Of a stretch of 64,000 nucleotides of DNA, positions 16,850 to 28,370 are shown in pieces. The stretch's first letter is position 1. Each line of letters opens with the position of its first letter. Source of the DNA: Solirubrobacterales bacterium (lineage in GTDB: Bacteria > Actinomycetota > Thermoleophilia > Solirubrobacterales > Solirubrobacteraceae); the NCBI GenBank assembly GCA_003244205.1, contig QHBW01000019.1, positions 1 through 64,000 of the forward strand. Direction: 5' to 3'. The translations under genes and the position numbers were made by a program. Under the pieces are notes generated by a model, which made no database searches, was not told where the DNA came from, and was given only the letters and a program-made list of their open reading frames with translations.

Positions 16850-17776
16850 ATGCCCCGAGCTATCTGGACCGGAGCGATCAGCTTCGGCCTCGTCAACGTC
16901 CCCGTCAAGCTCTACAGCGCCGTCAACCGCAAGGCGGTGCGCTTCCACCAGCTCAATGGCGAGGACGGCGTTCGCATCCAGCAGAAGCGCGTCGATCCGA
17001 CGACCGGCGAGGAGGTGCCATACGAGAACATCGTCAAGGGCTATGAGATCGCTCCCGATCGCTATGTCGTGGTGAGCCCAGAGGAACTCGATGCGCTCGA
17101 CCCCGCCGCCACGCGCACGATCGACATCGACGAGTTCGTCGACATGTCGCAGATCGACCCGATCTACTTCGATCATCCCTACTACCTTGCCCCCGCGACC
17201 GGCGGGGCCAAGGCCTACCGTCTGCTGCTCGACGCGATGCGCGACTCGGGCAAGATTGCGCTCGCGCGCATGGTGCTTCGCTCCAAGCAGCATCTTGCCG
17301 CGGTGCGCCCGACCGGGGACGTGCTCTCCGTCGTCACGATGCTCTACCCCGACGAGGTCGTGGATCCGGACGCGATCGACGAGCTTCCCGAGGCCGCCGA
17401 GACCGAGGCTTCGGAGCGTGAGCTGAAGATGGCCCAGCAGCTGATCGCGTCGCTCTCCGGCGAGTTCGACCCCAGCGCCTACCGCGACGAGTACCGCGAC
17501 AAGGTGCTCGAGCTGATCGAGCGCAAGGCGGCCGGCGAGGAGATCGCCGTCCAGCCCGAAGCTCCGCCAGCCGCTCCGGTTCCCGATCTGATGGCCGCGC
17601 TCGAGGCGAGCATCCAGGCTGCGCGGGGCCACGAAGCGCCGGCAAAGCCCGCCAAGCCACCTGCCGGCAGCGGCAAGCGGGCGCCTGGGAAGAGTGCGAA
17701 GGCTGGGGCCAACGGGCGCACCTCCGGCTCGGGAACGCGCAAGCGCACGCCGGCCGGCGGCGCGAAGAAGAGCTGA
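16850..17776 (+). CDS. ku: Ku, bacterial non-homologous end-joining protein
   Basis: A 308-residue Ku homodimer subunit starting MPRAIWTGAISFGLVNVPVK, the characteristic opening of bacterial Ku, and running through the beta-barrel core to about residue 210. The C-terminal 70 residues are Lys/Ala/Pro-rich, ending in basic KRTPAGGAKKS. Such tails bind DNA and stimulate LigD. No ligD gene lies in the window. Confidence 0.95.
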   Translation: MPRAIWTGAISFGLVNVPVKLYSAVNRKAVRFHQLNGEDGVRIQQKRVDPTTGEEVPYENIVKGYEIAPDRYVVVSPEELDALDPAATRTIDIDEFVDMSQIDPIYFDHPYYLAPATGGAKAYRLLLDAMRDSGKIALARMVLRSKQHLAAVRPTGDVLSVVTMLYPDEVVDPDAIDELPEAAETEASERELKMAQQLIASLSGEFDPSAYRDEYRDKVLELIERKAAGEEIAVQPEAPPAAPVPDLMAALEASIQAARGHEAPAKPAKPPAGSGKRAPGKSAKAGANGRTSGSGTRKRTPAGGAKKS

Positions 17777-17824: not shown

Positions 17825-17868
17825 GGAGCGACACCCATCATTCCCGCTCAAGGTCAGCGGAAATGGTG
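17825..17868. repeat. Interspersed 44-bp repeat, copy 1
   Basis: Identical to 36991-37034 except at two positions (42/44). It lies in the ku-gltB gap. The inner part (ATTCCCGCT ... AGCGGAAAT) can form an imperfect hairpin around CAAGGTC. Size, intergenic location and partial dyad suggest a REP-like element. Confidence 0.75.
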
Positions 17869-17977
17869 GGGTCGCGAGGGTCGCCACAGTGCGCGAATCC
17901 GACCCCGCGCAGCCCTTCGTCATTGATACCCTTCCGGGGTCCGTTCTCCGTGCCCGTCGGCGCTTCCCGAGCGCGTC

Positions 17978-26320: not shown

Positions 26321-27304
26321 ATGCCGACGTTCTGCCGCCACAACCGCTTCCTCGCCAACTGTCCCATCTGCTCTCCGGAGACGGCCTCCGGTGGCCGCGC
26401 GAGCACAAGCGGCCCCGGGCCGGGCGCCGCGGGCTCCACGGGCGCCGAGCGTTCGACGGCTGGCGCAACAACGCTCCCGCGCGGCCGGAGCCGGCGCTTG
26501 GGGGCGAAGGACATGCGCGTGCGCCAGGTGGCGCGCAGCCCCGAGGACGGCTTCCAGTCCGGCCTCCTACCCGGCCTGCGCGCCAGCGCCGACGCTCGCA
26601 GGCTGGCCGAGGAGATCGCATTCTCCGTGGCGCGGCTCGACGAGCTCTCCCGCGATCCGCCCGGGCTCTACGGCGTGATCGCCGGCGAGCCCGACGACGA
26701 GCACGCCTTCCTGTTGGCGTTCCTGATCGCCTATCTGTCTCCGCTGGAGGATCCCGACGATCCCTGGCGGGCGATCCGCACGGCGGCGGCCAGCGATCCG
26801 CCCTCCTTGGGGGGCGCGGAGACCGGACCGCGCGGCGTGCATCGTCCAGAGAACGGAACGCGCACGCTCGGCGCCTACCTCGCCTGGGCCCAGCGATCGG
26901 GCTCGCAGTCGGCCGCCTTCTTCGGGGAGGGTGGCTGGAGCGCGGAGCGCCGCTTCGCGCGCGCTCTGGAGCGCCTCGCCCTGCCGGCCTTCCCTCGCGC
27001 CGCGCGCTTCGAGCTGCTCGTCTCCCTGGGTCGACTGGGACGCTGCGAGCTGCGCGCCGGCACGCTCGCGCTCGGCGGCGCCGACGAGACGACCATCGCA
27101 GCCAAGCGCGTGTTCGGGATCGCAGACGTGCTCTTGCTCGAGCGGCGATCCGCTGCGCTGGCCGAGGCGCTCGGCATCCCGCTCGAGGCTCTCGACTTGG
27201 CGCTCTACAACTGGGACGCGGGAGATCGTCGCGCGACGCTGGGATCGCGAGCGACGGCGTCGCCCACGCTGGTCGAGGAGCTGGCGCTGGCGCTGGGTCT
27301 GTGA
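26321..27304 (+). CDS. Conserved-looking protein with N-terminal Cys/His motif, unknown
   Basis: The 327-residue product opens with CRHNRFLANCPIC, a compact putative metal site (Cys5, His7, Cys14, Cys17). A Gly/Ala/Ser-rich linker (about 20-55) and an alpha-helical body follow. The linker separates two parts that could be independent domains. Codon usage matches neighbours. I do not recognise the family and see no catalytic motif. TAGACT at 26300-26305 lies 15 bases upstream of the ATG. Confidence 0.6.
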   Translation: MPTFCRHNRFLANCPICSPETASGGRASTSGPGPGAAGSTGAERSTAGATTLPRGRSRRLGAKDMRVRQVARSPEDGFQSGLLPGLRASADARRLAEEIAFSVARLDELSRDPPGLYGVIAGEPDDEHAFLLAFLIAYLSPLEDPDDPWRAIRTAAASDPPSLGGAETGPRGVHRPENGTRTLGAYLAWAQRSGSQSAAFFGEGGWSAERRFARALERLALPAFPRAARFELLVSLGRLGRCELRAGTLALGGADETTIAAKRVFGIADVLLLERRSAALAEALGIPLEALDLALYNWDAGDRRATLGSRATASPTLVEELALALGL

Positions 27305-27340: not shown

Positions 27341-27583
27341 ATGCGATTGGCGCCCATCCGCCCCGGCGACATGATCGAGGTCGACAAGCGCGGCCGACCG
27401 GTGTTCGGGATCGTCCTGGGGGTTCACGAGGACGGCAGTGTCAGCTTCCAGCCGGTCACGCGCTCCAGCTATCACCGCGCCAGCGCCCGCGAAGTGCGTC
27501 GCCACTGGAGGCGCGTCGAGCCGCGCCAGCGCCGCGAGCACGCCGAGCATCCAGGCCAGATGCTGCTCGGTGGGACCGAATAG
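27341..27583 (+). CDS. Small basic protein, unknown
   Basis: An 80-residue protein starting MRLAPIRPGDMIEVDKRGR, with a predicted small beta-barrel (strands FGIVLGV and SVSFQPV) and a basic C-terminal helix. The pattern resembles KOW/SH3-like nucleic-acid-binding folds, but that is only an impression. No Shine-Dalgarno; TACAACT lies 7 bases upstream. Confidence 0.5.
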   Translation: MRLAPIRPGDMIEVDKRGRPVFGIVLGVHEDGSVSFQPVTRSSYHRASAREVRRHWRRVEPRQRREHAEHPGQMLLGGTE

Positions 27584-27914
27584 GGGGCGACCGTTACGCG
27601 GTCGGGCGGGCCCGAGCCCCGCTCGGCGGGCGTGATCGGGGCCCCGCTCGGCGGGCGCGGCCTGAGTCTTGGTCGGCGGGCGCGGCCAGTCGGAGTCCGG
27701 CGGGGGTCGCCGCGGACCGTGCGACATCGATGAGGACGAAACGGGACGTATTTTCCCGTTTCGTCCTCAACCGCCTCCCGATCTGCGTGCGGCGGCTCGG
27801 CGCTCCGTCCGCTCGGGCGCCGCGCGCCGCGCTGCGCGGGCCGGAGCCGTCCGACCCCGGGCGTAGCTTGCTCTCGACCGAGCCGATCCTCGAAAACGGG
27901 AGCGAGCAAGCCGC
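27584..27914. other. 331-bp intergenic region with repeats and palindromes
   Basis: No credible gene. It holds GC-rich direct repeats of CGGCGGGCG units (about 27609-27685), the perfect 16-bp-arm palindrome at 27731-27769, and an 8-bp inverted repeat GCTTGCTC (27866-27873) / GAGCAAGC (27904-27911) just before the ATG at 27915, which could fold over that gene's ribosome binding region. Confidence 0.6.
27731..27769. repeat. Perfect palindrome, 16-bp arms, 7-base loop
   Basis: TGAGGACGAAACGGGA (27731-27746) is exactly complementary to 27754-27769, with CGTATTT between. It is less GC-rich than its surroundings. There is no T-run on either side, so it is not a standard intrinsic terminator. It could be a factor-assisted terminator, a REP-like element or a protein-binding site. 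Confidence 0.85.
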
Positions 27915-28370
27915 ATGTCCCTCTGCTTCATCGAGCCGCACGATGCCATCCGGGTGATCGCCGAGTCAGTGGGACGCGAGGCGCGCCGTCAGCTGCTCGG
28001 CGAACTGGTGCGGGCATGGGTGGACGAGATTCCCGAGGAAGAGCTCGCCTCCCACTACGCCAAGGCGATCGACGACCTCGATGAGCACGATCTGTCGATG
28101 CTCGCCGCGTGGCACGCATCGCTCGAGCTCGGCCATCCGGTCGCCAACAAGGAGTTCCTCGTGCAGGTGTTTCCAACGCTCGGCGACAATCGTCGGGAGG
28201 CGCTCAAGATCGCGGCGGGGTTCCGTGGAGAGGAGGCCTTCGACGCGGGCGTGGCCGAGGAGCAGGCGCTGGAGACCGTGCTCCCCTGGCTGTCTCGCGA
28301 GCGTTGCATCGGGCTGGCGGCGGAGTGCATCGAGCTGTACTGCTGGGATCGCCTGGGCTCGGAAAACTAG
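27915..28370 (+). CDS. Helical protein of unknown function
   Basis: A 151-residue, almost entirely alpha-helical acidic protein beginning MSLCFIEPHDAIRVIAESVG. There are no catalytic or binding motifs I recognise, no signal peptide and no membrane segment. Base composition and codon choice match neighbours. It converges with the HAD operon, the two stops being 26 bp apart. Confidence 0.6.
   Translation: MSLCFIEPHDAIRVIAESVGREARRQLLGELVRAWVDEIPEEELASHYAKAIDDLDEHDLSMLAAWHASLELGHPVANKEFLVQVFPTLGDNRREALKIAAGFRGEEAFDAGVAEEQALETVLPWLSRERCIGLAAECIELYCWDRLGSEN

Follow-up and report, generated by a model that had tools for sequence, protein, structure and literature searches.

The window, by which we mean the whole stretch of 64,000 nucleotides analysed here, carries a long hairpin in the gap between a small gene and a gene of 151 aa (Table 1). 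Both genes flanking the hairpin run in the forward direction; a preliminary description of the locus had stated that they share one direction. The stop codon of the small gene lies 148 nt upstream of the hairpin, and a repeat array occupies part of the interval. The 151-aa gene is present in 131 of the 146 genomes of the family. A search for corresponding loci in relatives returned 30 loci, the window's own among them, so that 29 were examined. The small gene was found at none of these 29 and is either lineage-specific or recently gained. The 327-aa and 151-aa genes are syntenic in nine of the 29, and the hairpin is absent from all nine; one of the nine (L125) has a different strong hairpin 41–75 nt ahead of the 151-aa gene. 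Because nine syntenic relatives are without the hairpin, the window copy is either young or easily lost, with loss elsewhere.

Table 1. Features around the hairpin (positions in the window)
Feature	Position	Strand	Remarks
Conserved upstream gene	26498-27304	+	327-aa ORF spans 26321-27304
Small gene	27347-27583	+	~80-89 aa; no Pfam match; start possibly 27314 (89 aa)
Tandem repeat	27609-27682	+	25-nt unit, imperfect, three copies, GC-rich; between small gene and hairpin
Element used in models R1-R3	27727-27773	+	47 nt; orientation with loop CGTATNT
Perfect hairpin	27731-27769		16-bp arms 27731-27746 and 27754-27769; loop 27747-27753
Apex	27742-27758	+	17 nt; exact bar one free position in four own-genome copies
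Downstream gene	27915-28370	+	151 aa; no Pfam match; starts 146 nt past hairpin

The hairpin had been described as a perfect 16-bp palindrome of lower GC content than its surroundings, and both statements are borne out: the 16-nt arms are 100% complementary with 7 nt between them, and the GC content is about 51% (20 of 39) compared with 70.4% for the window. It is the longest perfect hairpin of the window, the runners-up having 12-bp arms. As RNA, it is predicted to fold with -28.4 kcal/mol on the forward strand (z -8.3) and -28.5 kcal/mol on the reverse strand. A chance palindrome is so improbable as to be negligible. Hairpins with 12-bp arms do arise by chance in the window, and the longest arm was 10–13 bp across 60 first-order Markov simulations of 64 kb. 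However, the analytic expectation is 0.003 for arms of at least 16 bp with loops of 3–20 nt in 64 kb, and the three further related hairpins described below refute a chance origin. An Rfam scan of the hairpin gave nothing above the gathering score (best 20 bits versus 69), and searches of phages, plasmids and viral contigs gave no match. We claim the hairpin family as undescribed only as far as limited searches, including these, extend.

The preliminary description had proposed a genome-wide search for the arm sequence. In the window's own assembly (G000; 2.66 Mb, 100 contigs), where a DNA search matched other contigs, this yielded four related hairpins, namely the window copy and three elsewhere, all between genes. 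The 17-mer apex is exact four times, in contigs C73 (the window), C19, C46 and C3, with CGGGA-CGTATNT-TCCCG in common. All four copies are hairpins with the 7-nt loop CGTATNT, and their lower stems differ: the C3 copy has three adjacent pairs changed on both sides, and the C46 copy has mismatches at the same positions plus one changed pair. Translation of the C19 and window copies gives a peptide in which their two differences are synonymous, but a coding reading was rejected on account of non-synonymous differences in the other two copies and of the intergenic contexts. Further 17-mer matches with two or three mismatches, and a match in G016, were not scored as family hairpins in the own-genome R3 search; the matches in C18 and G016 were both judged by eye, from sequence, to be coding. 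Eight exact pattern matches in 84,980 genomes were scattered and did not extend as hairpins, with an estimated ~7 expected by chance.

The window's genus consists of one genome only, and the apex was not found in 60 other genomes searched, bar the one chance coding match in G016. Copies in more distant relatives were identified with covariance models. Model R1, applied to the 146 family genomes, gave matches at E <= 0.1 in 20 genomes, most of which were set aside by eye; the clear relatives were G101 and G108, both of one other genus. Model R2, applied to all 28 genomes of that genus, gave clear copies in G101 (eight), G108 (one) and G112 (one). Most of the weak R1 matches (L081–L098) and of the weak R2 matches were set aside by eye as not representing this hairpin. 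Model R3, applied to 39 genomes, found the four own copies again, together with a borderline one in G010, and L117 was admitted to the family on its R3 score and position. Relatives thereby contribute at least ten further clear copies, spread over three genomes that belong to another genus within the bacterial family. The family is characterized by a stem of 16–20 bp and a 7-nt loop, CRTATNT; its dispersed copies are related in sequence and have unrelated flanks, and its distribution among relatives is patchy.

Locations were scored with a simple codon-based gene caller for 16 copies, comprising the 14 modelled copies, L117 and L182. For 12 of the 16, a stop codon is found no more than 60 nt away on the appropriate side, as against 23.4% of placements drawn at random within intergenic DNA (binomial 1.9e-5); the count of 12 includes two contig-end copies, a type of placement dropped from the null, and becomes 10 of 14 without both. 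The neighbouring genes are convergent in seven cases, co-directional in six and divergent in one, two being undeterminable at a contig end. At L101, the hairpin nearly fills a convergent gap of 58 nt, leaving 11 and 8 nt between it and the two stop codons. Stop proximity is not seen for the window copy (148 nt), for L080 (86 nt) or for the C3 copy, whose nearest called stop is 332 nt away, and the L121 copy sits between divergent called genes. Because of its distance from the nearest stop, the window copy is the weakest case within the family as to a function of its own.

Pairing is retained while the stem drifts. The four own copies were identified from primary sequence; pairing holds in 93.8% of their cells, and four pairs are changed on both sides, a two-sided count that 9 of 500 shuffles reached. 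When 14 copies are taken together, 84.6% of cells are paired and two-sided changes affect 14 of 20 pairs, a count reached by none of 500 shuffles; this covariation leans towards structure and is partly circular, most of the later copies having been found by models that reward pairing. An orthologous comparison is provided by the site in G108, between a carboxylase gene and a convergent gene, where both genes are found in nine loci. The hairpin is intact in G108, is still paired in G104, where two pairs close to the foot have been exchanged on both sides, and is degraded in G111 (z -0.1). It is absent in six syntenic loci of five genomes (G109, G105 twice, G120, G101 and G107). By eye, the gap is only 9–23 nt in four of these (G105 twice, G120 and G101); a different short hairpin occurs in each of the remaining two, G109 and G107.

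Covariation among dispersed copies, together with this one orthologous site found by synteny, supports the earlier suggestion of selection on RNA structure (or on single-strand structure). The companion suggestion, a site for a dimeric protein, fares poorly, as the lower-arm sequence changes freely with pairing retained. We consider an operator for a dimeric DNA-binding protein very unlikely. It would account for the near-perfect dyad symmetry, the fixed 7-nt centre and the conserved apex, and it would fit the C3 copy, which adjoins an AbiEi-like gene fragment directly on its 5´ side, as well as two other AbiEi genes with a strong upstream hairpin. However, apart from the freedom of the lower arm, the copies lie 3´ of genes, with divergent neighbours in only 1 of 14 classed copies, and the other two AbiEi-associated hairpins differ in sequence and have no R3 match at their loci. 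An AbiEi operator in particular was rejected: G000 has nine AbiEi_4 matches, three with a strong upstream hairpin, one of them of this family. As a separate observation, the AbiEi-like genes at L072, L074 and L077 have strong hairpins directly upstream, and these differ in sequence.

In a canonical intrinsic terminator, a T-run directly follows a GC-rich stem-loop. T-run terminator calling gave none at the window hairpin, in agreement with the preliminary description, and of 21 tails scored for 14 family hairpins, not one has at least four T in eight nucleotides. The same holds for other strong hairpins near stops, where 0 of 26 tails qualify (background 3.7%); these 20 comparison hairpins were picked for a nearby stop and consist of L182 and 19 out of 26 intergenic hairpins from outside the family. 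Because the comparison hairpins lack a T-run too, its absence is no sign against a transcript-end role in these genomes. The observation of a missing T-run thus stands, and the conclusion drawn from it, that the element is not an ordinary terminator, was too strong. For mycobacteria, I-shaped terminators that lack poly-U and lie at most 50 bp from stop codons have been described (PMC12288462), as have structured transcript ends lacking U for Streptomyces (PMC8269248).

Our preferred reading, to which we give about an even chance, is that the hairpins constitute a small, recurrent and lineage-specific family whose members, lacking a U-tract, may form transcript 3´ ends in both directions. The transcribed hairpin would make RNA polymerase pause and release the transcript, or would mark a stable RNA end, whichever way it is transcribed; such a mode of action has been proposed for I-shaped intrinsic terminators. 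The window copy would then be the boundary between the transcription unit that ends with the small gene (27583) and the conserved gene that starts at 27915. It is conceivable, if unlikely, that Rho stops the polymerase further downstream and that the hairpin only blocks 3´–5´ exonucleases, thereby fixing the end of the mature RNA. The same position and structure would be expected; in the Streptomyces 3´-end mapping, U-lacking structured ends could not be separated from stem-loop-capped Rho-dependent ends (PMC8269248), and Rho-dependent ends are described as dominant in M. tuberculosis (PMC12288462). At L101, however, the 58-nt convergent gap could hardly accommodate a Rho site that does not reach into the opposite gene.

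Alternatively, the element could be a palindromic repeat resembling REPs, selfish or mobile, that is tolerated at 3´ ends and has no role in termination, a reading we likewise regard as improbable. REPs are described in PMC3733652 as dispersed intergenic palindromes beside the 3´ ends of co-directional and convergent genes, with a stem of 5–13 bp and an unpaired tetranucleotide tag at one hairpin end (GTAG and CGTC super-families). The present family is similarly repeated, extragenic and near 3´ ends, and its related dispersed copies with unrelated flanks, its patchiness and its presence or absence at orthologous sites would fit such an origin. In contrast to REPs, the stems are 16–20 bp, no unpaired tag recurs consistently (in most copies the foot positions are paired), and only four copies are found in 2.66 Mb; the compensated stem changes at one orthologous site also argue against it. 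The RAYT/Y1 transposase that accompanies GTAG-type REPs was not found in the four carriers searched (G000, G101, G108 and G112; genomes 73–93% complete). Among the 13 genomes searched, two have a Y1 transposase, and neither is a known hairpin carrier. No target duplication was seen by eye. Even if it does not belong to the REPs, the family may still spread like one. In the related genus, G024 has three Y1 transposase genes.

Other long hairpins in this genome also recur. One pair (L077 1430-1482, in C37, and L059 17625-17685, in C46) has an alignment score of 48 versus a shuffled maximum of 25. Another pair, formed by window 17834-17870 and L058 4508-4552 (G000:C19), has a score of 44 versus 24, and its window member lies 58 nt past the stop of the forward-strand gene 16850-17776, ahead of a glutamate synthase gene. 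The closest plasmid matches of GltB reach only about 55% identity, so the source is assigned no more narrowly than to a high-GC and probably actinobacterial organism. Judged by such sequence relatedness, G000 shows signs of at least three recurrent hairpin families. One bold extension, which we put forward as rather improbable, is that several portable families of bidirectional, U-tract-less terminators spread and settle between gene ends, supplying or replacing terminators, with the loop CRTATNT serving as the part recognised and the drifting stem having only to pair. If so, the loop would be recognised by the polymerase, by NusG/NusA or by some mobiliser. Transcript ending without U-tracts in high-GC bacteria is disputed; for mycobacteria, Czyz et al. 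reportedly found in 2014 that a U-tract is required, to go by their title. Hairpins at U-less 3´ ends that combine a constant loop with drifting stems offer matched natural variants for the question of termination by a hairpin alone, and the family also allows spread between gene ends to be asked about. If they are only REP-like, a repeat family has been documented in a poorly studied bacterial family.

REPs apart, two known systems are closest, both relevant to our preferred reading of the hairpins as candidate transcript ends. TRIT, a recurrent terminator model of M. tuberculosis (Gardner et al. 2011, RNIE), reportedly represents a recurrent hairpin family at the gene ends of an actinobacterium, which is its likeness to the present hairpins. 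The model is mentioned in PMC3526491. The I-shaped terminators of mycobacteria and Streptomyces share with the family a strong hairpin that lacks a T-run and lies just past stop codons (PMC12288462; PMC8269248). Set beside their spacing of up to ~50 bp from the stop, 12 of 16 family copies fall within 60 nt and the window copy does not. Unlike I-shaped terminators, the hairpins reported here, for which termination is putative, are related to one another in sequence, with a conserved apex and loop.
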